Of a stretch of 33,315 nt of DNA, positions 18,189-33,263 are shown one piece after another. Each line of letters opens with the position of its first letter. Position 1 is the first letter of the stretch. This DNA is from Pseudomonadota bacterium (GTDB lineage Bacteria > Desulfobacterota > JADFVX01): contig JADFVM010000169.1 in the NCBI GenBank assembly GCA_015222555.1, positions 1-33,315 on the forward strand, in the 5' to 3' direction. The position numbers and the translations under genes are program-made. Below the pieces are notes generated by a model. It was not told where the DNA came from. It was given only the letters and a program-made list of their open reading frames with translations, and ran no database searches.

Positions 18189-19457
18189 TCAATGACTCTT
18201 TTTTTTTGATCGCCGGAAAAGAGATCTGATCCCCTTGCGGGGTGAACTCAAAAGACGAATGGTTCTCAGCTGGATGAGATATTCAGTCCATATCATTATT
18301 GCCTCCCAGAAGTTCTCTATAAAACGTACATACCATGGCCGCTTTAACCAGTTTATATACTCTATTTCTCTACTTTCCTCCAGGTCTGCGAGAAACATCC
18401 GGGCCATGTCTTCTGCAAAATGGCTGTCAATGACTTCCTGGTTTGCCTCCAGGTTCCAGCGAAGGCTCCATTTGTCCAGGTTACTTGATCCTATGGAAAT
18501 CCAGTCGTCGCAGAGCATTACTTTGGAATGAAGAAAGCGGGGGGCATATTCAAAGATACGAACGCCATTGCGAAGCAGGGACTGGTAATAACGCTGGCTG
18601 ATTCGTCTCACAGAGGGATGATCTGTCTGCTTCCCCGGCAGAAGGAGACGCACATCAACACCGGCACGGGCCGCTTTTCTCAGGGCTCGACGGATCTTCC
18701 ATGAAGGGATGAAATAGGCCATTTCTATCCAGATGCGTTTCCTGGATTTTCGAATTCTTTTAAGGAGCGATCTAATGATGTCGCGACGGTGAGGTGGCAG
18801 TAAAAGGGCTACCCTGCCTTCCATATCGGCAGCTTCAATAGAATGATTGCCGATGGGCAGGTTGATGAAGGGCTCTCCCCATTGGTTCCAGATTGACTGG
18901 AATGAGGATTGCCAGTCTGAAACAACAGGGCCGGATATCTCTACCATAGTATCGAGCCAGAAATCGGACGGTTGATGTAAAGGAGAAAAGTCATCTGTAA
19001 CTCCTGCACCTCCCGTGTATGCGATTAGGTTATCAATGAGAAGCAGTTTGCGATGGTTTCTACGCAGGTTTGCAAGCCACTTGCCATAGCGAAGGGGGTT
19101 ATAAAAAATAAGAAAAACACCATTTTCAGCCAGGCGTTTCCTGTCTTTACTGTTGAGATTCCACGATCCAAAATCATCAAGAAGAAGATAGACAAAAACC
19201 CCTCTTTTTGCGGCCTTGCAAAGAGCATCAATAAAGCTTGTAGCAACATGGCCGGATTCAAAGATGTACATTTCCATGAGAACGTACTTCTCAGCCCCCT
19301 TAATTGATTTAAGCATGGCCGGAAAAAAGTTGTTTCCATTTTTCAGGCACTTGAAGCTGTTTCCCTTGTACCAGGGCGTTCCTTCCATGACAGGAATATT
19401 TTTTTCTCTCTTCTTCATCGTCAAGTTAAATATATCGGGATAAAGATAGAAGATCAA
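18189..19457 (-). CDS. Cardiolipin synthase-like phospholipase D family protein (ClsB type)
   Basis: Two HKD motifs HRKLLLIDNLIAYTGG and HSKVMLCDDWISIGSSNLD; no N-terminal TM pair, as in ClsB. Internal starts (Met near 19418) possible. Confidence 0.9.
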   Translation of the reverse strand: MIFYLYPDIFNLTMKKREKNIPVMEGTPWYKGNSFKCLKNGNNFFPAMLKSIKGAEKYVLMEMYIFESGHVATSFIDALCKAAKRGVFVYLLLDDFGSWNLNSKDRKRLAENGVFLIFYNPLRYGKWLANLRRNHRKLLLIDNLIAYTGGAGVTDDFSPLHQPSDFWLDTMVEISGPVVSDWQSSFQSIWNQWGEPFINLPIGNHSIEAADMEGRVALLLPPHRRDIIRSLLKRIRKSRKRIWIEMAYFIPSWKIRRALRKAARAGVDVRLLLPGKQTDHPSVRRISQRYYQSLLRNGVRIFEYAPRFLHSKVMLCDDWISIGSSNLDKWSLRWNLEANQEVIDSHFAEDMARMFLADLEESREIEYINWLKRPWYVRFIENFWEAIMIWTEYLIQLRTIRLLSSPRKGIRSLFRRSKKKSH

Positions 19458-19545
19458 CTCTTCCCGCTTGCATTTTTCACCGGCTGGCTTTATTCAGATA
19501 GTGCTTTGACCTGGTTTTCAGGCGTCGAGATGATCTTTGATGAGT

Positions 19546-22047
19546 TTAGTTCTCTTCAACCCCTTCAGGACCGAAAGGCTTGAAGACGATGATAAGTTGA
19601 GGTAAAAGTGTGAGTGCGGCAATGAGTGCTATAATCATTGCGAGGCCAGTGAGAAGCCCAAAATAAATACTTGGAATGAAATTTGAGAGGATGAGGATTG
19701 AAAAACCGATGATAATTGTGATAGAGGTGTCATACATGGCATATCCTATGCTCTCGTGGCATCGATGCATTGTATTGATATAATTCCTGTCTTTTTCCAC
19801 CTCTTTCTTGAACCTGTGAATGTAGTGGATGGTGTCATCTACGGCGATGCCGACGCTGATTGAAGCGATGGTGATGGTCATCATGTCAAGAGGAATACCC
19901 ATCCATCCCATGAACCCGAGCACAGAACCGACGGAAAGAAGATTGGGGAAAATAGCGATGAGCGCGATTTTTATTGATCTGAAGAGGATCAGGAACATGA
20001 ACATGAGTGCCGCAACGACAGCAGCAAGTGTCAGGATTTGGGAGCTAAAGAGGCTTTGAAGCATGTTGTTGTACAATACCAACAGGCCGGAAAGGTGAAT
20101 GCGTTCCTCCTTAAAGCCAAGCTTGTCGGTGAGGTCGCCTTTAATCTGCTTAAGCAGTTCATTTCTTCTTAAGTCTTCTTCGGAATCCCTTACACGAACA
20201 GCAAAACGGACCTGATCGTTTTCAACAGAAACATAGGGTGATAAAATGATCTTCTTGAACTTCTCCGGTAGCTCTTTATAGATGAGGGCCAGTTTAAAAT
20301 TATCCAGAGGTTCTCCCTTGTTCAACTTCTCACCCACCTTCAGCATTGTTCCAAGAGACAGGACCTTCCCTGTTTCGCTAAGGCTGTCCAGATAATCATG
20401 TATTTTTGTTACCTCTTCCATCTTGTCCGATGTAAACCAGTATTTGGGATCATCTTTGGCAGCCTCAAACTCTTCTTCAAATTCGTCAAATTCATCAAAT
20501 TCTTCATCCTCTGTTGTAGCTGCCTGTTCAATAACTACTTCCTCTTCATTAAAATCAAGTGTGATATTTAGTGGTGTCGTGCCGCCCAGATGCTGATCGA
20601 TGACTTTCATTCCCTGATAGATCTCTGTGGACTCTTTGAAGTAGTCTATAAAACTGTTTTCAACGATGAGCCTCCTCCCTCCCGCAACACTTAGAATCAA
20701 TAAAATGGCGCTTCCGACAATGATGAGTGATCCGTGACGTTCTGTAAAATTGGCAAGCACTTTTGTCAGTGCGAAGCGGGATTCAAATGTGGTATCAGGG
20801 ATTTTTTTTTCAAAAAATATTAGTACTGTAGGAAAAATTAGAAAAGTCAGAATCAATGATACGCCAATTCCGGCGCTCATCATCCAGCCAAAATTGATCA
20901 CAGGCAGTATGTCACAGAGAATAAGAGAACTGAAACCTGCCACTGTCGTTAAGACAGCATAAGTACAAGGTTTAGCCATGGAAGTGACTGTATCAAGAAT
21001 AAGCTGATGCTCAGTTGCCTCGGGATTGAGAGCAATCAGTTCGCGATACCTGACAATAAGGTGGATGGTGACGGCCATGGTGATAATAATCTGAATGGAG
21101 ATGAAGTTGGACGAAATTACTGTTACTTCCCAGCCGAACATTCCCAGTAGACCGCAGGTTGCGATAACGGAAAATGAGCAGCAAATAATGGGCATCAATA
21201 TCCATCGTCGTTGTCTGAAAATTAGCCATAAGGTAATGATTAGAAAACACAAGACACCAATTCCGAAAAGCCTGAGATCATTTTTTACGAAGGAAATCAG
21301 GTCATCGGCAATCATGCTGACACCGCCAAGAAAGAGGTCGGCCTCTCCCCTGTATTTGTCCATGATGGACCTAACATCATGGATGGTCCGGTGTTGTTTG
21401 ATCCGCATCCTGTCCCGATGTTCTTTAAAGCGGACAAGCAGTTCTTTCAGCTCACGCTCTTCACCATCTGTCAAGTCTTCAAGCTTTTGTTTGTCTTTGA
21501 GCTCATTACGGCGGGACAGGAGCTGGTGAAAAACCTTATCTTCTGCCAGATTGGCCTGAAGAGCAGTCGTTTTGAAATCATGGCTGACCAGCATATTGCT
21601 GTAGATTGGACTATTCAGAAACTCCTCCCGGGCCAGCTTTCTGTCCGCATTAGGCGATTCAAGGGTTTGGACATTCTTGACCATTTCCTTGATCGGCATG
21701 GGCGGACTTTCGAGCATCGGCACATTCAGTAAGGAGGTGACGGACTCTACGCCTTCCAGCTGGTTGAGCTCATCACTGAGGTGGCGGATATTATCAAGTG
21801 TCTTGTTTGAAAGGAGATTTTCCCTTGGTGTATAGGTTATGACCAGGAAATCCGGGCTGCCGTACCGGTCATTGATTATCCGTGTATAACGGAGGTCCTC
21901 ATCATCTTCAAGGATAAGGGTTTCTGCAGAGGCATCAACTTCCAGTTTTCTTGCCTCGTATCCAAGGAAGGCAATAACTGCAAGGATGACAAGCAGGACC
22001 AGCCTGGGGTATTGAAGAATAAAGTTGTCGTATAAGCGTCTTAGCAT
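19546..22047 (-). CDS. RND superfamily (MMPL-type) exporter, putative lipid transporter
   Basis: 833 aa with two 5-6 TM bundles and two large periplasmic loops; GIAVDDTIHYIHRFKKE and ITMAVTIHLIVRYRE RND helices. Confidence 0.92.
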   Translation of the reverse strand: MLRRLYDNFILQYPRLVLLVILAVIAFLGYEARKLEVDASAETLILEDDEDLRYTRIINDRYGSPDFLVITYTPRENLLSNKTLDNIRHLSDELNQLEGVESVTSLLNVPMLESPPMPIKEMVKNVQTLESPNADRKLAREEFLNSPIYSNMLVSHDFKTTALQANLAEDKVFHQLLSRRNELKDKQKLEDLTDGEERELKELLVRFKEHRDRMRIKQHRTIHDVRSIMDKYRGEADLFLGGVSMIADDLISFVKNDLRLFGIGVLCFLIITLWLIFRQRRWILMPIICCSFSVIATCGLLGMFGWEVTVISSNFISIQIIITMAVTIHLIVRYRELIALNPEATEHQLILDTVTSMAKPCTYAVLTTVAGFSSLILCDILPVINFGWMMSAGIGVSLILTFLIFPTVLIFFEKKIPDTTFESRFALTKVLANFTERHGSLIIVGSAILLILSVAGGRRLIVENSFIDYFKESTEIYQGMKVIDQHLGGTTPLNITLDFNEEEVVIEQAATTEDEEFDEFDEFEEEFEAAKDDPKYWFTSDKMEEVTKIHDYLDSLSETGKVLSLGTMLKVGEKLNKGEPLDNFKLALIYKELPEKFKKIILSPYVSVENDQVRFAVRVRDSEEDLRRNELLKQIKGDLTDKLGFKEERIHLSGLLVLYNNMLQSLFSSQILTLAAVVAALMFMFLILFRSIKIALIAIFPNLLSVGSVLGFMGWMGIPLDMMTITIASISVGIAVDDTIHYIHRFKKEVEKDRNYINTMHRCHESIGYAMYDTSITIIIGFSILILSNFIPSIYFGLLTGLAMIIALIAALTLLPQLIIVFKPFGPEGVEEN

Positions 22048-22070
22048 TAAAGAGCTGTCATCCCGTCCTG

Positions 22071-22673
22071 TTACTTTTTGCCGTCAGGAAGTGCAAAGTT
22101 TCCCGATCTTTGTAATTTTGCCAGTAGAGTTTCAACCGTTCCTTTTTTCAGGATGCCGTCAAATTGGGAACGATAGGTCTGGACAATGCTGACTCCCTGA
22201 ATTTCCACATCATATATCTTCCAGCCCCTTTTTGATTTATAAAACTTATACAGCATATCTACATCGTTATCCTTTGATACAAGGTGTGTCATGATGCGGA
22301 TTTTCTTTTTCACCATGAAGGGTTCCTCATAGACTGCCTCTTCATCGCTGTAAAGGTCCAGTTTTTCAATGTAGGATTCCTGGATACGTTCAACAAAAAG
22401 TGAGGTGTATTCCTTCTGCTGTTCTTCATTTAACGTGGGCCAGTATTTTCTCCCCAGGCTTAGTTTTCCCATTTTCTCGAAGTCAAATATGGGAATAATA
22501 GTCTCTAGAATTTCAGCATTTCTCTTCTGCTTATCCATATCATTTTTCTGAAGGAGAGAAATTACGTTGTCCATCCGCTCTCTTAGCATGGCGTCTACAT
22601 CGCTTTTGTCATCGGCAAAAACAGGTTGCGAAAAAATAAACAAGAAAATAAATAAATAAATGAGCCTTTTCAT
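22071..22673 (-). CDS. mlaC: MlaC/Ttg2D-family periplasmic phospholipid-binding protein
   Basis: Signal peptide; LGRKYWPTLNEEQQKEYTSLFVERIQESYIEKLDLY, GWKIYDVEIQGVSIVQTYRSQFDGIL. Confidence 0.92.
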   Translation of the reverse strand: MKRLIYLFIFLFIFSQPVFADDKSDVDAMLRERMDNVISLLQKNDMDKQKRNAEILETIIPIFDFEKMGKLSLGRKYWPTLNEEQQKEYTSLFVERIQESYIEKLDLYSDEEAVYEEPFMVKKKIRIMTHLVSKDNDVDMLYKFYKSKRGWKIYDVEIQGVSIVQTYRSQFDGILKKGTVETLLAKLQRSGNFALPDGKK

Positions 22674-22675
22674 GA

Positions 22676-23569
22676 CTACTCCCTGACTTTCTTTTTTCTG
22701 TTTTGTTCATAAGCATCCCTTAAAAAGGGGTACAGATCAAGGGCATCCTTTTTTATGCTTTCATATTCACCGATATGATGGGATGCTTCATTCAATATAT
22801 TAAAAGATTTGACAGCCAGTTCCTCTTCCGCTTTTTTTATGTAACTTACAGGGTCCATGAAATAGTCAGGGACAAGGCCGACAACATCACGCAGGTTGGA
22901 TGGGCCGAGAAGAGGCAGGACGATGTGAAATCCACCTCCCAGGCCATAATGGCCCAGGGTTTGACCAAAGTCCTCAGGATAGGCCTCCAGGTTAAACCAG
23001 TTTTTTGCCGGGTCTCCAAGGCCGAGAATGCCCACTGTGGTGTTAACGCCGAAGCGCGTTAATTCTATGCCGGCGCGCTTAAATTTCAGTTGAAGGACGT
23101 TATTGACAAAACGAAGGGGAAAGAGAAGGTTATTAAAGAATCTTGTGACAGAGCGACGTGCGCTTAATGGAACAACTTTTTTGTAGCCGTTGGCCACCGG
23201 TTTGAGCAACCAGAAATAAAACTTATCATTAACAGATGTCATGATTCGGTTATAGCCGCTTAGGGGATCAAAAACTTCTTTGGAAGACGCCTCTTCAAAC
23301 TCTTCTTCCAGGTCGAAGAAGTCTTCATCTTCCTCGTTTTCAGAGCTGTCTATCACGCCCGCATCGGTGACGACCGCTGTTTCAAGTGATGCCATTAAAA
23401 TAGGTGTGGGCGTAAAGTCATAATTCTCTTGAAAAATGACCTCATTTTTTGCAAGGATTGGCTTGGTAGAGTGATTTGATCTGTCAATATCAGAGGGAAT
23501 GTAGGCATGAATAGCTGTGGCATGAAAGAGGAGAAAAATAAAGGCAAAAAAAATATAAAAACGGGACAT
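22676..23569 (-). CDS. mlaA: MlaA/VacJ family protein
   Basis: DPLSGYNRIMTSVNDKFYFWLLKPVANGYKKVVP, GLGDPAKNWFNLEAYPEDFGQTLGHYGLGGGFHIVLPLLGPSNLRDVVG. Confidence 0.95.
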   Translation of the reverse strand: MSRFYIFFAFIFLLFHATAIHAYIPSDIDRSNHSTKPILAKNEVIFQENYDFTPTPILMASLETAVVTDAGVIDSSENEEDEDFFDLEEEFEEASSKEVFDPLSGYNRIMTSVNDKFYFWLLKPVANGYKKVVPLSARRSVTRFFNNLLFPLRFVNNVLQLKFKRAGIELTRFGVNTTVGILGLGDPAKNWFNLEAYPEDFGQTLGHYGLGGGFHIVLPLLGPSNLRDVVGLVPDYFMDPVSYIKKAEEELAVKSFNILNEASHHIGEYESIKKDALDLYPFLRDAYEQNRKKKVRE

Positions 23570-23875: not shown

Positions 23876-24883
23876 CTATTCAGCCATGATGCAACGGTTT
23901 CGACCTTCTTCCTTTGCCTTATAAAGAGCTTCATCGGCTCTGGCGACCAGATCGTCAGGATTGCCCGATTTGTCTGGCTGCATGACTGCAACACCAAGGC
24001 TGATACTGACAAAATCCGCTACATCTGAATAGGCATGTGGGATATTTTGTTTCTCAATATTTGCCCGCATTTCTTCTGCTACTTTTGCAGCCCCGTCAGC
24101 GTCTGTGCCGGGAAGTATGGCCACGAATTCCTCGCCTCCATAACGGGCAAGAAAGTCACCGGAGCGGATAATGGTCTCATCGAGAGTCGAGGCGACCTGT
24201 TTCAGGCAGTCATCTCCACCCTGATGTCCGTAACCGTCATTATATTTTTTGAAAAAGTCGATGTCGAGAATGACAACGGCAACCTGGTGCTTTTCTCTCC
24301 AGCCCCGTTTCCATTCCTGCGCCAGCATTTCATCAAAATGGCGGCGGTTGGCAATACCTGTGAGACCGTCAAGCACTGAAAGCCGCTGCAGGATGGCATT
24401 GCTTTTTTTCAGTTCTTCCTGAAGCTTTTCCATTTCACGGTATGCTTCGTCGCGTTGGAGCTGTAACAGATAGGTTTTAGAGTGCGCCCGGATTCTGGCA
24501 ACCAGTTCAATTTTGTCGGGCAATTTTACCAGGTAATCACTGGCGCCATTTTCAAAGGCCTGTCTCTTGGCCATAGGATCTTCCTTGGTGGAAAGGACAA
24601 TAACCGGGGTAGCCGACGTGGCAGGGTTGGCGCGATAAAACTTTAAAAGTGTATATCCGTCCACATCGGGCATGACAAGGTCCTGCAGGATGATGCTTGG
24701 CTGTATCTCGTTGGCTGTTTGGACGGCTTTTGACGATTCCTGACAATAATGGAACTCAATATCCTTGTCGTCCACCAGCATTCTGCGTATCGCTTCTGAT
24801 ACGATGGCCTGGTCATCTACGAGTAATACCACCGGATGGGGCAGGTCTTTTTTCTCTTCTTCAGGTATATGGTCTTCGCTCAT
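23876..24883 (-). CDS. wspR: Response regulator diguanylate cyclase (REC-GGDEF), WspR-like
   Basis: REC domain (LQDLVMPDVDG) and GGEEF active site with RSGD I-site 5 residues upstream; terminal gene of wsp-type operon. Confidence 0.93.
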   Translation of the reverse strand: MSEDHIPEEEKKDLPHPVVLLVDDQAIVSEAIRRMLVDDKDIEFHYCQESSKAVQTANEIQPSIILQDLVMPDVDGYTLLKFYRANPATSATPVIVLSTKEDPMAKRQAFENGASDYLVKLPDKIELVARIRAHSKTYLLQLQRDEAYREMEKLQEELKKSNAILQRLSVLDGLTGIANRRHFDEMLAQEWKRGWREKHQVAVVILDIDFFKKYNDGYGHQGGDDCLKQVASTLDETIIRSGDFLARYGGEEFVAILPGTDADGAAKVAEEMRANIEKQNIPHAYSDVADFVSISLGVAVMQPDKSGNPDDLVARADEALYKAKEEGRNRCIMAE

Positions 24884-24895
24884 GATCGCAGTACT

Positions 24896-25927
24896 TTATT
24901 TGGATTTTATCTGATAAGCAAGTATTTTTTTTGTCAGCGCCTCAGCAATGTCATCAATGGGTAGAATGTCTACAGCGGCATTCAATTCAACGGCGGCCTT
25001 GGGCATGCCGTATACCCTGCATGTCTCCGCATTTTGCGCAACCGTATAGATTCCATTCTGCTTCAGTTGGAGTAAGCCATCAGCGCCGTCTTTGCCCATT
25101 CCTGTCAGAAGCGCTGCAACGGCTTTTCCGCCCCAGTTCTTAAGGATGCTGTTAAAAAAGACATCGACAGAAGGTCTGTAAGGAGTCTGTAATGGATTCT
25201 CTTTGTATACGAGGCAACTTCTCTCGTTAATATAGAGATGATTGTTCGTGCCGGCAACAAGAACCGTGCCGTGATTTAGCCTGTCCCCATCCATGGCAAG
25301 ACGTACGGGAAGTTTTGAATATTCACCAAGCCAGTCGGCAAAACCCTGTGAAAAGTTTTCGTCTACATGCTGCACAATAACAACGGCTGCCGGCAGGTCC
25401 TTTGGAAGAGTGGAAAGAATTTTTATGAGGGCTGCAGGCCCTCCTGTAGACGCTCCCAGTGCAAGTAAGCATTTGTCTGATGTGTCAGGTTTGGGTGACA
25501 CGCTTAAATTGAGTGAAGTTTTTTTCCGATCTGCATCGATGAGTTTGCCGATGGTCCGTATTTTCTTGAGAAGCTCATTTTTACCATCTGCCTCTCCACT
25601 TGTGCCGAGGATGGGGGTACTTACGGCATCCAGCGCGCCCACACTCATGGCCTCAAAAACTTTGGCTGCGTTGGCAGTGACTGAAGCGGTGACCACCAGT
25701 ATAGGACATGGGGAATTGGCCATGATGTTTCGAGATGCTTCCACACCATTCATCTCAGGCATGATGAGGTCCATAAGTATGAGATCAGGCACGTCGTCGG
25801 CACATCGACTCACCGCTTCCTTGCCGTCCTTTGCAATCCATGCAACCTCATATCCTTGTACCGTTGTTATGATGCGCCGCATGACTTCTACGGCCATTTT
25901 CATGTCATTGACGATGGCAATTCTCAT
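24896..25927 (-). CDS. wspF: CheB-type methylesterase response regulator, WspF-like
   Basis: REC (LILMDLIMPEMNG) plus CheB catalytic domain (GASTGGPAAL, VVQHV, LLTGMGKDGADGL). Confidence 0.93.
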   Translation of the reverse strand: MRIAIVNDMKMAVEVMRRIITTVQGYEVAWIAKDGKEAVSRCADDVPDLILMDLIMPEMNGVEASRNIMANSPCPILVVTASVTANAAKVFEAMSVGALDAVSTPILGTSGEADGKNELLKKIRTIGKLIDADRKKTSLNLSVSPKPDTSDKCLLALGASTGGPAALIKILSTLPKDLPAAVVIVQHVDENFSQGFADWLGEYSKLPVRLAMDGDRLNHGTVLVAGTNNHLYINERSCLVYKENPLQTPYRPSVDVFFNSILKNWGGKAVAALLTGMGKDGADGLLQLKQNGIYTVAQNAETCRVYGMPKAAVELNAAVDILPIDDIAEALTKKILAYQIKSK

Positions 25928-28698
25928 AGATTTCCTTCTCCGATAAGATCTGTAACAGCATTAAGAAAGGTATTGTCGTGAAAGCTGCCTTTCGTCAGAT
26001 AATAATCTGCGCCTGCGTCGAGACCGCGCCTGCGGTCTTCCGCCCTTTCCTTATAAGATACAATGATAACGGGAATAGAACTGAAGTTGCGGTCACTTTT
26101 GATCAAACGTACCAGTTCAAAACCGTCCATGCGCGGCATGTCAATATCGCTGATGATGAGGTCATAGTTCTGGTATGATCGAATGGCGTTCCAGCCGTCC
26201 CTTCCGTCTACGGCAATATCCACACTGTAACCTGCTTTTTCCAAAAGGTTGCGCTCCACTTCACGAACGGTGAGAGAGTCGTCCACCACCAGGATATGCT
26301 TGCGTTCTTCCTCTAAAGCTTCACTTAATGTGCGCTGCACTTTACCGATGCGATCTTTTTTTACAAGCGAGTCTACAGAATATACCAGATCATCTACATC
26401 AATGATCAAGACAGGTGAACCATCTTCAAGAAGCGCGGTGGCGCTAATATCGTCTATTTTACCAAGAAGTGGATCAAGGGTCTGCACGGCAAGTTCCTTT
26501 TGACCAATGAAGCGGTCAACCACAACGCCGTAGGTTTTTTCATGAGTACCAATTATTACGACAGACATCTCCTCCCCCTCAACTAGCTGCGATCCAAAAC
26601 CAAAGACAAGTGATGCTCCAACAATGCCTATGTTCTGACCATCTATACTGATGAACTGGTGGTCTTCAAGTACTTCGACATGATTGGAGGGGATTTTTAC
26701 GGCGTGATTGATCCGTGCCAGGGGAAAGGCGTAGGGTTCTCCGGCAATGTCCACAATCAATGTCGACATAACAGAAAGAGTTATAGGTAATTGCAGATGG
26801 AAACATGTGCCCTTTCCCAGTTCTGTCGTTGTTTTGATTGCCCCATGCATGGCCTGAATTGTGTCCAGCACGACATCGAGACCCACACCTCTACCAGACA
26901 GGTCTGTCACTTCATCCCTTGTTGAGAAGCGTGGAAGAAAAAGAAAGTCTAACAGCTCTTCTTCGCTTAGGTTTGCGCCCATCTCAGGTGTTACCTGACC
27001 TTTTTCAATGACCTTCTTTCTCAAATGGTCCAGATCTATACCACGTCCGTCATCTTCAATGATAATGGATAACATGCCATTACTATGTGTCGCAGTCAGC
27101 CGTATTAGTGCCTGTTCCGGTTTCTCTGACTCAAGACGCTCTTCCGGTGATTCAATGCCGTGGTCAATTGCATTACGCAAAAGATGGTTAAGAGGGGCTT
27201 CCATCTTTTCAAGAACATCTCTGTCCACCTGTGTAGCAAGCCCATTAATCTCAAGTCGGATCTTTTTCCCTAGTGACTTTGCAATATCGCGTACCATACG
27301 TTGAAAACCGTGGACACCATCTAAAAAAGGACGCATGCGTGTCACGATGGTTTCACGATGCAAGCGTTCAGACAGGTTAGTTATTCGTTGGTCATAGCTG
27401 TCAAGTTCACTTATCTGCTCGGAGAGTATTTGCCGGCATTTTACTGCCTTGGCTTGGGCCGCGTGCACCTGCTGTGATACAGTTTCACGGGCATGCAGGT
27501 CGTCCAACGTGTCTCTAAGGGAGTCAAGAACCTCGACCAGCTCAGTATGTTCGTGCTTTAATCTGCCCAGCGAAGACACATAGGGGTGCAACCATCCCGC
27601 TTCAACCTTAACTTCTCCGGCAAGGCTCATCAGGTAATTCCATCGTTCCGCGGTGACGCGCAGAACACGGTCTTTTTCTGCCTCTCCCTTGCTCTTTTTT
27701 GCAGGCTTTGCTTCGGTTTGTGATGATTGTTCGATTTGAGGTGATGTATTAGTTTCGGTGATTAAAATGCTGTCCTGAATCTCCTTTAGTGAGGCGTCAT
27801 CCTTTGATTTGATAAAACCGAGTGCTTTAAGAAGGTTTCCCAGACTATCGCCATGTTTTGTCCCCCAGTTGGCTATCTCATTTTCAGATAGTTTTGCAAT
27901 GGAGGTAATGGCATCAACCCCGGCAAGTAGCACATCGACGTAATCTGCATTGAGCGTAATATCAGAATTCTGGGCGGCAACAAAGACATCTTCCATGATA
28001 TGGGCCAGTTGCACCACCGGGTCGACACCCACCAGACGGGCGGCGCCTTTGACGGAGTGGGCGGCACGCATGAGCGCCTCCAGCCTTTTGGCAGCCGTGG
28101 GGTCTTCCTCCAGCGCCAGAAGAGATTCTGTGATAATTTTCCCCTGATCGGCCACTTCGGTGCGGAAGAGATCAATCATAGACGCATTGGCCAAATCAAC
28201 AGTTCTGTCGGCCGGTTGTTCCGCCTCGGTCTCTGCGGCTACTTCCTCCTTTTTTGATGAACGTGACGAAGGTTTCTCGGATATGGCCGTGCCAGGCTTG
28301 ATATCACCGATAGCGCCGACGATATCATCCATTTCTTTTTTGTGACTGTCTTCCCATCCCTTGATTTCTTCCTCGGAAAGTTCTGAAATCGAAGTGATCA
28401 GGTCATTGCCGCTTAACAGTATATCTACATGGTCGCTAGTAAGCACTATTTCTGCATTTTGAGCAGCGACAAAGGCATCTTCCATGACGTGGGCCAGTTT
28501 CACCACAGGATCGATACCAACAAGACGAGCGGCGCCTTTAACGGAATGAGCGGCACGCATTAGCGCCTCCAGGCGATCGGCAGCACTGGGGTCTTCCTCC
28601 AGTGCAAGCAGCCCGTCTGTTATGATTTTACCCTGTTCACCAACCTCTGTGCGGAACAGGTCAATCATGGAAAAATTACTTAGATCATCATTTGCCAT
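25924..28698 (-). CDS. wspE: Hybrid CheA histidine kinase with two N-terminal Hpt domains and C-terminal REC, WspE-like
   Basis: Two AAHSVKGAARLVG Hpt motifs, LLRNAIDHGIESPEER N-box, GRGVGLDVV, CheW-like domain, REC (LIISDIDMPRMDG). Confidence 0.95.
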   Translation of the reverse strand: MANDDLSNFSMIDLFRTEVGEQGKIITDGLLALEEDPSAADRLEALMRAAHSVKGAARLVGIDPVVKLAHVMEDAFVAAQNAEIVLTSDHVDILLSGNDLITSISELSEEEIKGWEDSHKKEMDDIVGAIGDIKPGTAISEKPSSRSSKKEEVAAETEAEQPADRTVDLANASMIDLFRTEVADQGKIITESLLALEEDPTAAKRLEALMRAAHSVKGAARLVGVDPVVQLAHIMEDVFVAAQNSDITLNADYVDVLLAGVDAITSIAKLSENEIANWGTKHGDSLGNLLKALGFIKSKDDASLKEIQDSILITETNTSPQIEQSSQTEAKPAKKSKGEAEKDRVLRVTAERWNYLMSLAGEVKVEAGWLHPYVSSLGRLKHEHTELVEVLDSLRDTLDDLHARETVSQQVHAAQAKAVKCRQILSEQISELDSYDQRITNLSERLHRETIVTRMRPFLDGVHGFQRMVRDIAKSLGKKIRLEINGLATQVDRDVLEKMEAPLNHLLRNAIDHGIESPEERLESEKPEQALIRLTATHSNGMLSIIIEDDGRGIDLDHLRKKVIEKGQVTPEMGANLSEEELLDFLFLPRFSTRDEVTDLSGRGVGLDVVLDTIQAMHGAIKTTTELGKGTCFHLQLPITLSVMSTLIVDIAGEPYAFPLARINHAVKIPSNHVEVLEDHQFISIDGQNIGIVGASLVFGFGSQLVEGEEMSVVIIGTHEKTYGVVVDRFIGQKELAVQTLDPLLGKIDDISATALLEDGSPVLIIDVDDLVYSVDSLVKKDRIGKVQRTLSEALEEERKHILVVDDSLTVREVERNLLEKAGYSVDIAVDGRDGWNAIRSYQNYDLIISDIDMPRMDGFELVRLIKSDRNFSSIPVIIVSYKERAEDRRRGLDAGADYYLTKGSFHDNTFLNAVTDLIGEGNL

Positions 28699-28700
28699 TC

Positions 28701-29387
28701 TTACTGAAGGCTCCTCTCTATCTGGGAAATCAATAAGTCCTCATCGATGCAACCCACAGATTTGCCGTCATACTTGATAATACCCCGCATATAACTTGCC
28801 AGTGAATCTGATAAAGTCTTGGGCAGCGCTTCCATCTCTTCCCCTTTGAAATGATAAATACCAATGATTTCAGTGACGGGAAATGCAAATCGTTTACCTT
28901 CTTTTTCAAGAACAAGCAAACGTTTGAATTTGGCGTGGCTTTCTTCATCATAATCACGCTCACCCTTTGAAAGACCGAGTATTGCGCCAAGAGAAAAGCA
29001 GGGTTGAACCTCTCCAGCCGAACTAACAACACCCTTTAAGATTGAATTCTTGTTATGGGGTAGCCTGTGGATTTTAGACATCTTTGTGATTTCTCTGCAA
29101 AGATTTGCAGCAAGCGTTACCCATTCGTCACCGATACGGAAGATAATAACCGCCCGTGTTTCAGATAATGCATCATCTTTATCCCCTGAAAGTACACTAG
29201 TCCATTCCCTGCGGTAATCCTCAGGCACACGTTGCTCATAAACTTCAAGGCTGGCCGCATGAAAGACATCGCAGTTGCGGCAGTGAATGACAGTTTCAAG
29301 TTCCGGACAACGTGGTGTCTCTGTTCCCCAGACACCAATCCGTTGCCAGCAATTTTCTCTATCAAGGTTTTTCTTTTTCTTAGCCAT
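28701..29387 (-). CDS. wspD: CheW-domain protein, WspD-like
   Basis: CheW fold residues AVIIFRIGDEWVTLAANLCREITKMSKIHRLPH; N-terminal Cys-containing extension CWQRIGVWGTETPRCPELETVIHCRNCDVFHAA; operon position. Confidence 0.88.
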   Translation of the reverse strand: MAKKKKNLDRENCWQRIGVWGTETPRCPELETVIHCRNCDVFHAASLEVYEQRVPEDYRREWTSVLSGDKDDALSETRAVIIFRIGDEWVTLAANLCREITKMSKIHRLPHNKNSILKGVVSSAGEVQPCFSLGAILGLSKGERDYDEESHAKFKRLLVLEKEGKRFAFPVTEIIGIYHFKGEEMEALPKTLSDSLASYMRGIIKYDGKSVGCIDEDLLISQIERSLQ

Positions 29388-29417
29388 TGTTTATGATTTC
29401 CATCTCCTTCTCTGAAG

Positions 29418-30737
29418 CTATGACCCTGCCTTTTTGTCCTCTCTTCTTTTGACTCGTTCTGCGCGAGTTCTGAATCCTTCCGCTTTATTGAGATCACCCA
29501 TCCGCTCAGACAAAGTGGCTAAATAGGTGAGGGCTTCATAAAATGTCGGATCAAGATAAACAGCCTTTCTTAGGTACTCATCAGCCTGGTAGGCATCACC
29601 CATGGAATCCACTGCTTTACCGAGAATGAAATAGACTTGTGCTGACACAGCGTCCTCTTTTATCAGTTCTTCACATAGGGCAACCGTTTCCTTAAAGGCA
29701 CCCTCATCGGCCAACCTGATGGCTTCAGCAATTTTAGCTTCAGCATGGGAGGGCTGCTTTTCATTACTTTCATCCCTACGCTTCATGAGCGGGGGCTTTG
29801 CCGTCAGAGATTCAATCTTTGTGAGGGGCGGCGTCTTTCCCGGGACTGTTTGTTTCTTTTCCGGATCGGTTTGAATTTGAATTTTACTTCTTTCCCTCTG
29901 AATGGGTGTAGAAATATTGAGAAGGGCATTAATCCTTTTTGCCTCTTTTATTTTTGCAAAAGAAAAGGCCATGGGATAATCCAGTTGATCAAATCGATGG
30001 GTAGATAAACTTGCCGTTTCTGCATGACCAACAAAAAGAACACCGTCGCTGCAGAGTAATTGCGATAATGCTGCAATCGCCTTTTTCTTTGCCGATTCGT
30101 CAAAATAGATCAAAAGATTTCGGCAGAATATAACATCGTAACAGTCACGGTCAGAGACAAAATCATGGGCAAGCAGATTGCCCTGCTGAAAATTGACAGC
30201 GCCATGAACCTTATCTTTCAGGCGATATTCTTCGCCTTCTTTCGAAAAATGACGCTCACGAAAGTCGAGATCCTTCCCGCGGAATGAATAAGCGCGAAAT
30301 AATCCCGACTTAGCCGACTTGATAAACTGATCACTAATATCGACAGCGTCTATTTGAAACTGATCACTGTTCAGGCCCATATCGAAGAGAAGCATGGCAA
30401 TGGAATAGGGTTCCTCACCGGTAGAACAGGGAGCGCTCAGTATCCGTAATGGAGAAGTAGGCTCAATGTTTGTCCTGAATTGTCTGACATATTGCCCCAG
30501 TGCTGTAAATGGTGTTCTGTCACGAAAAAAGAATGTTTCCGGGATGACGACGGCCTCAGTGAGTTTTCGCAGTTCAGATGGATCATTGTTAAGCCTTTTA
30601 AGGTAATCATAAACGCTAGAGGAGCCACATTCGGACATGCACTTATGAATGTGCTTTTCAACTGTTGAAATGCCAATGGACTGAGCATTAAGTCCAATTT
30701 GATCTTCTAATAATTTTAAAACCAGTGTGATATCCAT
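29418..30737 (-). CDS. wspC: CheR-type methyltransferase with TPR repeats, WspC-like
   Basis: ETFFFRDRTPFTAL, LSAPCSTGEEPYSIAMLL, CRNLLIYFDE; C-terminal TPR region. Confidence 0.93.
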   Translation of the reverse strand: MDITLVLKLLEDQIGLNAQSIGISTVEKHIHKCMSECGSSSVYDYLKRLNNDPSELRKLTEAVVIPETFFFRDRTPFTALGQYVRQFRTNIEPTSPLRILSAPCSTGEEPYSIAMLLFDMGLNSDQFQIDAVDISDQFIKSAKSGLFRAYSFRGKDLDFRERHFSKEGEEYRLKDKVHGAVNFQQGNLLAHDFVSDRDCYDVIFCRNLLIYFDESAKKKAIAALSQLLCSDGVLFVGHAETASLSTHRFDQLDYPMAFSFAKIKEAKRINALLNISTPIQRERSKIQIQTDPEKKQTVPGKTPPLTKIESLTAKPPLMKRRDESNEKQPSHAEAKIAEAIRLADEGAFKETVALCEELIKEDAVSAQVYFILGKAVDSMGDAYQADEYLRKAVYLDPTFYEALTYLATLSERMGDLNKAEGFRTRAERVKRREDKKAGS

Positions 30738-30774
30738 GGGCTACAATATTTTTAAAGTTGCCGGTGGCAAGACG

Positions 30775-31251
30775 CTAGTCATCTGACGATTCGCCTTTAA
30801 ACAAGATCTCGTAGGCCTCTTCCGGAAGTAGTTTTGCTATATTTATCCTTTGGGCAACACCCTTGTCATCGGTGGCAACACTATCGAGATAGGGCTCCTC
30901 TTCAAGATTGACACCTGAACTTGAAAACTCACTTTCATCCCAATTGACGGTTTCTGTTAAATGTTCATTGAGTATGCCTATGCAAAACTGCTGGCCATCG
31001 TCCTTATTATAGTTTGTCAGGACGATTCTCGAACTTAACTTGGGTTCACATTTTTTGTCAGTCATTAAATAGCAAACGTCTATGACGGGAATAGTTTTCC
31101 CTCTATAGTTCAAAAGACCAGCAACATAGGAAGGCGCTTTCGGGATCTTCTTCAGATGAACAAAGGGGATGATCTCTATCACATTTTTTGCTTCAAGGAG
31201 GTAGCGGTCATCACCCGATTTGAATTGCAGAAAGAGCATGATATTAATCAA
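30775..31251 (-). CDS. wspB: CheW-domain protein, WspB-like
   Basis: FKSGDDRYLLEAKNVIEIIPFVHLKKIPKAPSYVAGLLNYRGKTIPVIDVC; 4-bp overlap with the MCP gene. Confidence 0.9.
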   Translation of the reverse strand: MINIMLFLQFKSGDDRYLLEAKNVIEIIPFVHLKKIPKAPSYVAGLLNYRGKTIPVIDVCYLMTDKKCEPKLSSRIVLTNYNKDDGQQFCIGILNEHLTETVNWDESEFSSSGVNLEEEPYLDSVATDDKGVAQRINIAKLLPEEAYEILFKGESSDD

Positions 31252-33263
31252 GAATTATCTTTGACTTTAAACTTGATAACACCGCCTTGCAGGGTGTGCG
31301 CAGCGTCATTGAGCTGCATAATCGCCTCATTGGATTCCTTCAGTGATTCCACCGTTTGCTGCGCTGCTTCATTAAGTTGAATCATGGATTGATTGATATG
31401 TCCTGCCCCTTCGGCCTGGAACTGCATACCCTGATGTACAGTTTCAAACCGTGGCGTTAAGGTCTGAACCTGTTCAATTATCTGGCCAAGCTGTGAAGCC
31501 ACTTCTCTAACATTGTTGACACTATGTCGCACCTGCTCGGAAAATTTCTCCATACTCATAACACCTGATGATACAGCTGTTTGCATTTCTTTTACCATCT
31601 GTTCTATATCAAGTGTGGCAACGGCAGTCTGATCGGCAAGGCGGCGAATTTCCTTGGCAACTACGGAGAAGCCAAATCCATATTCACCCGCTTTCTCGGC
31701 CTCGATGGCGGCATTGAGTGAGAGAAGGTTTGTTTGATCGGCCACCTTTGTTATTGTCGTAACAACAGTGCTAATATTGCCGGCCTTTTCATTAAGTACT
31801 TCAAATTTAGATGAGATTGTTCCTGCCGCTTCAACAATGTTATTCATTGTTGATTCCATGCTTTCCAGACCTGTTTGACCGACTTCTGCAGCCGTGGCTG
31901 TGCTTTCTGCAACATTGGAAACTTCATCCATGGTGGTGACCAGTTCCTTTGACGTCGCTGAGATTTCTGTTGCCGTTGTTACGATTTCATTGGTCGTTGC
32001 CGCCTGCTCGGCAACGGTGGCTTCCTGTTGCTTAGCTGTTGCTGCAATAGAGTTTGCGGCAGATGCCAGTTGGATGCCGGATCGCTGTACCTGGGTGACC
32101 AGTCCATTGAGATTGCCTATCATTCGCTGCATTCCATCGCCCAGCTGGAATATAGCATCATCACCTTCAATTTCTATTTTGCCTGTAAGGTCTCCCTCAG
32201 CGGCCTTGGTGACGACGCCAAGAATCATGTCAACACGCTGCTGCAGAGATTCCATTGTTCTTACCTTCTCTTCGCTCGCTTCGCTGATATAGGTAATCAT
32301 GTTTTGCAGCTGCTTTGCCAGTTCGCCTATGGCATCTGTTCCAGAAAAGCTGACTTCTACTGAATAGTTGCCCTGGGCAACCTTGTTAACAACTCGCAAT
32401 AAATCATCGACCTTTGCTCTCATCTCTTCTGCCGCAGCATGCTCCCTCTTCATACGTTCCTGTTCGCGAGCGGCAGCCTCATCGTTGCTGTCAGACATAT
32501 GATTAAATGCAATAGCCAGTTTGCCCAATTCATCTTCTGTCGAGACAGGGACGGCCCTGGCGTCCAGTTCCCCATTTGCTCTTCTGTTGACTACATCCAT
32601 GAGGCTGTTTAAGGGAGTGATGATCCAGAATTTAAACAGAAGGTTCACCAGGAGGAGACCTATAATGAAGAAGGCGGTACTGCCACCGATTGACATCCAG
32701 AGTTCGTGATTAACTGCATCATAAATTTCATCGAGAGAGAAGCTGATGCGAACAGCGCCGTTAATATCGCCATCCTTAACATCATGGCACTGGAGGCAGT
32801 TTACACCGGCTGTGTCTTCAGTTGCCTTGAAGGGTGTAATGACGACGAGAGTCCTCTTCCCATTGGTCTCAATGATTTCATGTATTTCCTCTCCTCTTAA
32901 TGCACGCGCATCCAGGTTGTCCCTGGGCGCGCTTCCCGGCGTACCCGGACCATATTGATTTTTAACGGGATCCCCGCGGAGTGACCTTGCTTCTATTACT
33001 CCCTTACGTGCAAGCATTTTTTTACTGATTATCTCGCGCTGGTCCATTGTGCCTGTGAGCATCATCGTATTCAAACTGTCAAAATACATGGTGGTTAAGT
33101 CTCTTGTCTGCTCCTGCACCTGTTCCATTAGCACTGCTTGCTCCCGCGTGACGTTATAAGTTGTAAGCAAAGCGATGACAATGGCAAAAATGAAGGCCAC
33201 GGAAAAGTTGACTTTTGATCTGATAGGTAAGCGATTAATAAACTCCAGGCGGTTTAAAATCAT
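31248..33263 (-). CDS. wspA: Methyl-accepting chemotaxis protein with periplasmic c-type heme motif, WspA-like
   Basis: Two TMs, periplasmic CLQCHD, HAMP repeats, MCP hairpin tip NLLSLNAAIEAEKAGEYGFGFSVVAKEIRRLADQ; first gene of operon, SD aaaaggag upstream. Confidence 0.93.
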   Translation of the reverse strand: MILNRLEFINRLPIRSKVNFSVAFIFAIVIALLTTYNVTREQAVLMEQVQEQTRDLTTMYFDSLNTMMLTGTMDQREIISKKMLARKGVIEARSLRGDPVKNQYGPGTPGSAPRDNLDARALRGEEIHEIIETNGKRTLVVITPFKATEDTAGVNCLQCHDVKDGDINGAVRISFSLDEIYDAVNHELWMSIGGSTAFFIIGLLLVNLLFKFWIITPLNSLMDVVNRRANGELDARAVPVSTEDELGKLAIAFNHMSDSNDEAAAREQERMKREHAAAEEMRAKVDDLLRVVNKVAQGNYSVEVSFSGTDAIGELAKQLQNMITYISEASEEKVRTMESLQQRVDMILGVVTKAAEGDLTGKIEIEGDDAIFQLGDGMQRMIGNLNGLVTQVQRSGIQLASAANSIAATAKQQEATVAEQAATTNEIVTTATEISATSKELVTTMDEVSNVAESTATAAEVGQTGLESMESTMNNIVEAAGTISSKFEVLNEKAGNISTVVTTITKVADQTNLLSLNAAIEAEKAGEYGFGFSVVAKEIRRLADQTAVATLDIEQMVKEMQTAVSSGVMSMEKFSEQVRHSVNNVREVASQLGQIIEQVQTLTPRFETVHQGMQFQAEGAGHINQSMIQLNEAAQQTVESLKESNEAIMQLNDAAHTLQGGVIKFKVKDNS

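Follow-up and report, generated by a model that had tools for sequence, protein, structure and literature searches.

The window analysed in our study comprises 33,315 nucleotides and is the entire contig (C68) of a draft genome of 2.7 Mb in 383 contigs, which is 95% complete. Judged from its closest labelled neighbours in the MlaC and RND trees, its relatives belong to the Thermodesulfobacteriota (Desulfobacterota). Four genes on the minus strand, encoding MlaA, MlaC, an RND/MMPL transporter and a phospholipase-D-family protein, are separated by gaps of 2, 23 and 88 nt (Table 1). An earlier note on this DNA had described the first three as nearly contiguous, and our ORF check reproduced the coordinates and the 2 and 23 nt gaps. 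Their families were recovered by Pfam: MlaA (PF04333) matched with E=2.8e-68 and 229.9 bits (gathering cut-off 25), MlaC (PF05494) with E=7.6e-39 and 133.6 bits (gathering cut-off 26), and MMPL (PF03176) matched the RND protein in two stretches above the gathering cut-off (E=4e-31). At the level of sequence, the assignment of MlaA, MlaC and MMPL/RND to their families is secure.

Table 1. Genes and protein features of the locus (positions refer to the window).
Feature	Position	Strand	Remarks
mlaA	22676..23569	-	297 aa; MlaA domain aa 100-293; ORF check and Pfam
mlaC	22071..22673	-	200 aa; periplasmic lipid-carrier family; triad-specific MlaC clade
RND/MMPL (HAE3/HpnN-MmpL type) inner-membrane transporter gene	19546..22047	-	833 aa; proposed counterpart of MlaFEDB
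ClsB-like phospholipase-D-family gene	18189..19457	-	422 aa; outside the conserved unit
RND acidic-aromatic segment, aa 502-531	20455..20544	-	disordered, second periplasmic domain; includes DEEFDEFDEFEEEFEAA; may serve to dock MlaC
MlaA acidic-aromatic segment, aa 78-98	23276..23338	-	NEEDEDFFDLEEEFEEASSKE; resembles the RND segment
MlaC LGRKYW, aa 73-78	22440..22457	-	one-residue insertion; alignment of seven triad MlaCs
RND aa 737-738, DD of GIAVDD in TM10	19834..19839	-	candidate proton-relay acids

For the fourth gene, read before as a ClsB-type cardiolipin synthase, the position was reproduced, the name less securely so. Its product matched PLDc_2 in two stretches above the gathering cut-off (E=1.4e-45), but reached only 239 bits with the NCBIfam model ClsB (cut-off 281) and 241 bits with bac_cardiolipin (cut-off 290). 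As both values lie below the equivalog cut-offs, the protein is called Cls-like here and the name ClsB is approximate. The gene has a TTG start with an in-frame ATG 13 codons downstream, and the annotated start may be too early. Upstream of mlaA, on the same strand, a chemosensory cluster (window 23876-33263) encodes a GGDEF-type response regulator, a CheB-like protein, a CheA-type kinase carrying two Hpt domains, a receptor of the HAMP-MCP type, CheW and CheR.

In the canonical Mla system, MlaA is located in the outer membrane, MlaC in the periplasm and the ATP-driven MlaFEDB complex (MCE-ABC) in the inner membrane. The supposition that MlaFEDB is missing here agrees with our whole-genome profile searches, in which neither the MCE protein/MlaD (PF02470) nor the MlaE permease (PF02405) had a match in the host genome. 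Thus, the MlaD and MlaE proteins that define a canonical Mla system were not detected, and MlaC is present in exactly one copy, that of the operon itself. Control genomes were positive for PF02470, PF02405 and PF05494, showing that these searches were functional; absence of MlaFEDB from draft MAGs is never absolute.

Among 59 sampled genomes of the phylum, 57 contain MlaE. The two exceptions are the host genome and its sole family sister (G001, assembly 85% complete), which carries the same triad of mlaA, mlaC and RND genes with an RND protein 68% identical to that of the host. MlaC was found in 32 of the 59 genomes and lies within 8 kb of MlaE in 23 of these. Three of the other nine are triad carriers; in the rest, MlaC and MlaE are located on separate draft contigs. 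The sister genome also contains two near-identical mlaA ends at contig edges (L025:1-513 at the start of C94; L070:4047-4820 at the end of C60), which are probably strain variants or the result of an assembly break.

The earlier note had made its proposal depend on conservation of the gene neighbourhood in relatives, and the triad turned out to be kept across three phyla. Genes for MlaA, MlaC and RND adjoin one another at ten more distinct loci, six of them in Desulfobacterota (L010, L013, L014, L025, L026, L034), one in a Lambdaproteobacterium (L015) and three in Elusimicrobia (L017, L018, L020); L035 repeats L014, and L032/L033 repeat L025/L026. Such recurrence argues against a chance neighbourhood. 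The gene order is mlaC-RND-mlaA in L026 and mlaA-mlaC-RND in the other triad loci. The flanking genes vary and encode e.g. a ZIP transporter (L010), an amidohydrolase (L013), an aldehyde dehydrogenase (L015) or DnaB and alanine racemase (L017). With a threshold as permissive as E<=1, tblastn detected no Cls at the other triad loci. Differing flanks and the lack of a Cls nearby indicate that the conserved unit is the triad, and the Cls-like gene is a local neighbour. Since a Cls adjoins the triad in this window only, the idea of cardiolipin as cargo, derived earlier from the neighbouring synthase, was dropped.

In the MlaC tree, nine triad MlaCs form one clade (support 100/100). MlaCs of the families f35/f69, which are linked to RND genes as well, form a separate clade (100/99) closer to the canonical MlaCs. 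All seven triad MlaCs that were aligned share a one-residue insertion, LG[RKP]xxW as opposed to LGxxW in the others. The RND tree groups the triad RNDs together (88/79), beside a second, MlaC-linked group (100/100) and a third group unlinked to MlaC (99/100). Judged from these trees, either the RND gained an MlaC partner on two occasions, or a single exchange of MlaC took place; each of these histories supports a working RND-MlaC pair. The second MlaC lineage linked to the same RND orthogroup is represented by L039, L041, L043, L045, L047 and L048, and in some of these f35/f69 loci MlaA is divergently oriented.

The RND orthogroup had a match at E<=1e-80 in 19 of 395 genomes of the phylum and adjoins MlaC in 11 of the 19 (G000, G001, G034, G071, G132, G133, G208, G293, G332, G349, G368). 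None of these 11 genomes has MlaE beside MlaC, compared to 23 of the remaining 29 genomes with MlaC (Fisher p=5e-6, a value uncorrected for relatedness and therefore indicative only). MlaE is wholly missing in five of the 11. In each of the other six there is a single MlaE, encoded by a long frame (382-395 aa), which is a STAS-MlaE fusion in both proteins scanned (G034, G332). Its neighbours are an MCE protein in G034 and an auxiliary lipoprotein in G332, and an MCE gene adjoins it in G071, too. The long-frame MlaE is part of a different MCE system that is unlinked to MlaC. Two triad genomes outside the phylum sample, G395 (L010) and G404 (L020), contain short-type MlaE genes on other contigs, so that the mutual exclusion of RND-MlaC and MlaE is strong but not universal. 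Furthermore, MlaC is not an obligatory partner of the RND, because the orthogroup occurs away from MlaC as well (L036-L038, L040, L042, L044), and some genomes with such an unlinked RND retain a normal MlaC-MlaE locus. Neighbours of the RND genes in this unlinked subclade include QueF or fumarase genes.

The AlphaFold2 model of the RND protein (pLDDT 83.5) exhibits the RND/MMPL topology with two periplasmic domains and a disordered stretch at aa 502-531. Together, the MMPL domain pair and the predicted topology place it among the HAE3/MMPL-type RND proteins. The nearest structures are MmpL5/MmpL4, NPC1-type proteins, MmpL3 and HpnN, mostly lipid transporters, and the nearest solved sequence is HpnN (5khn, E=2.9e-10). 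The TM10 motif GIAVDD is nearly invariant, with D737 conserved in at least 90% of the RND alignment. At the matching position of TM4 the RND has no acidic residue, and in L020, one of the triad loci, the RND is devoid of the TM10 acids. By analogy with other RND proteins, proton coupling may proceed via the TM10 acids.

The MlaC model (pLDDT 89.5) matches MlaC/Ttg2D structures (8dte, 2qgu, 5uwa), several of which are lipid-bound, and together with the PF05494 match it assigns the protein to the MlaC family and its carrier fold. MlaC scores higher with the HpnM model than with the E. coli MlaC model, in both cases below the cut-off. MlaA possesses a signal-peptide-like N-terminus, an acidic N-terminal extension and no C-terminal tail past the domain. 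No lipoprotein signal was found in the window MlaA. As there is no cysteine anywhere in the protein, it cannot be a lipoprotein; presence of a lipobox varies among the MlaAs of the phylum.

MlaA and RND each carry an acidic-aromatic segment, located directly before a DP[LFI]xGYN-type motif in MlaA and directly before an invariant YW in RND. Both segments are readable in ten loci (e.g. EDEDFFDLEEEFEEA and DEEFDEFDEFEEEFEAA). Pairs of MlaA and RND segments from the same genome scored higher than shuffles in eight of the ten loci at p<0.05, six of them at p<=0.004. The mean score against RND segments was 37 for MlaAs from these loci and about 25 for canonical MlaAs (averaged by hand). Across the ten loci, matched pairs scored no better than mismatched pairs, and acidic N-termini also occur in several of the phylum's canonical MlaAs. 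On these grounds a pair-specific, co-evolved motif was rejected and the shared segment stays a lead. The acidic segments are partly low-complexity, and the likeness could be due to composition. Alternatively, the segments on MlaA and RND could serve to dock MlaC. A basic surface on triad MlaCs complementing the acidic segments was considered and rejected, the net charge being near neutral and not raised. In E. coli, the binding surfaces for MlaA and MlaD on MlaC overlap, and a flexible C-terminal tail of MlaA is required for MlaC binding (PMC10245069). Most MlaAs of the phylum seem to lack this tail, which, together with the overlapping surfaces, makes the docking lead worth testing.

Taken together, we consider it probable (about 0.7) that the triad is a self-contained lipid-trafficking operon, a variant of Mla driven by the proton motive force in which the RND replaces MlaFEDB as the inner-membrane partner of MlaC. 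This reading builds on computed gene content and order, conservation, co-phylogeny, undetected MlaE/MlaD and the predicted RND fold. That an RND sits in the place of MlaFEDB, as the earlier note had suggested, is supported by the searches, which detected no mlaFEDB in the host genome, and by the neighbourhood conserved across phyla. The comparison with HpnM/HpnN drawn there proved apt as well, the RND being nearest to HpnN and MlaC scoring higher with HpnM than with E. coli MlaC. MlaA, as a lipid channel in the outer membrane, would pass the presumed cargo, phospholipid, from this membrane into MlaC. The soluble carrier would then cross the periplasm and dock on the periplasmic domains of the RND, perhaps through the acidic-aromatic segment found on both MlaA and RND. 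The RND/MMPL protein would be the energised inner-membrane station in place of MlaFEDB. MlaA and MlaC are retrograde components in E. coli, for which reason we lean towards retrograde transport here. The most specific version, a proton-driven Mla that returns outer-membrane phospholipids and in which disordered acidic-aromatic segments on MlaA and RND hand over MlaC, is tentative and stands somewhat short of even odds.

Transport in the opposite direction by the same parts is a serious alternative, though we regard it as less likely: the RND would extract lipid from the inner membrane and load MlaC, which would deliver it to the outer membrane either by way of MlaA or directly, in the manner proposed for HpnN with hopanoids and BstABC with sterols. 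The RND lipid transporters HpnN, BstA and MmpL3 are described in the literature as exporters, and the best structural matches of the RND are of the MmpL type, the best sequence match being HpnN. The retrograde role of MlaA and MlaC in E. coli speaks against it, as does the fact that in the phylum the RND takes the place of the MCE-ABC complex otherwise used by the same MlaA and MlaC families.

It is improbable that the RND is a separate efflux pump for hydrophobic compounds such as solvents or xenobiotics, which only shares a transcript with a reduced MlaA-MlaC pair. Monoterpenes are exported by RNDs of the HAE3 type such as AmeD (PMC6394551), and the orthogroup is also found away from MlaC. 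Co-phylogeny and repeated linkage to two MlaC lineages in different contexts speak against this explanation, which would moreover leave MlaA-MlaC of the host genome without a known inner-membrane partner. MlaFEDB might also be missing through an assembly gap, with a normal Mla system present and the RND incidental. The 383 contigs and 95% completeness of the MAG and the 85% of its sister would allow for this, but MlaE is missing from two independent MAGs of the family and present in 57 of the 59 phylum genomes, and in nine more genomes with RND and MlaC linked no MlaE adjoins MlaC, so that a gap is very unlikely. Transport of hopanoids (or sterols) of the HpnMN type is the least probable explanation: the HpnM and HpnN models match MlaC and RND, and HpnN is the closest solved sequence, but MlaC reaches 62.5 bits against the HpnM cut-off of 160.1 and RND 110 and 95.9 bits against the NCBIfam HpnN cut-offs of 751.85 and 1100, MlaA is part of the unit, and the lack of a match for squalene-hopene cyclase (PF13243) in the genome makes such a role unlikely.

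Like canonical Mla of E. coli, the proposed proton-driven variant uses members of the MlaA and MlaC families, presumably in the same roles. It differs in that no MlaE/MlaD was detected in its host and the inner-membrane station is an RND, so that the pathway would be powered by the proton gradient and not by ATP. In addition, the MlaA of the window lacks the MlaC-binding C-terminal tail (PMC10245069) and a lipobox. Like the HpnM/HpnN pair, the triad combines an MlaC-family carrier gene with an adjoining HpnN-like RND gene; unlike it, it includes MlaA, its host has no detected hopanoid cyclase, and its scores are far below the cut-offs. The BstABC system of Methylococcus, too, consists of an RND, a soluble periplasmic carrier and an outer-membrane component, but transports sterols, and its partners are not MlaC and MlaA: BstB is a binding protein of PF12974, and BstC comes from a different family (PMC10942540). 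AmeABCD resembles the triad in that an HAE3 RND is encoded with outer-membrane and periplasmic partners; these are DUF1302 and LolA-like DUF1329 proteins instead of MlaA and MlaC, and the system exports monoterpenes (PMC6394551). Veillonella MlaEFD (PMC10665443) and Brucella Mpc (PMC12436622), MCE systems of minimal or chimeric form, illustrate that Mla modules are mixed and replaced in evolution. In both, the MCE-ABC core is retained and MlaA/C are lost or altered, whereas the triad host exhibits the reverse. Thus RND-based comparators are known (HpnM/HpnN, BstABC, AmeABCD), each with other partners or cargo. In the openly licensed papers, which cover part of the literature, we found no description of a partnership of MlaC with an RND, MMPL or HpnN protein.

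Traffic between MlaA and MlaC is thought to depend on MlaFEDB and ATP, and its direction and energetics have long been disputed. Here, lipid traffic between both membranes may have a power source that has yet to be described. If this holds true, the energy source of Mla would be exchangeable, the same carrier working with a proton-driven pump. The carrier steps would be separable from the engine, and three genes would provide a minimal system for reconstitution. How Gram-negative bacteria lacking any MCE system keep up their outer membrane would then be predicted as well.

MlaAs related to that of the window also occur outside the triad. Three of them, at L011:2076-2870, L012:7851-8633 and L016:7839-8735, are 51-65% identical to the window MlaA and have no adjoining MlaC or RND. 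In L012, the product of the next gene has 719 aa and includes an LPG_synthase_C domain.
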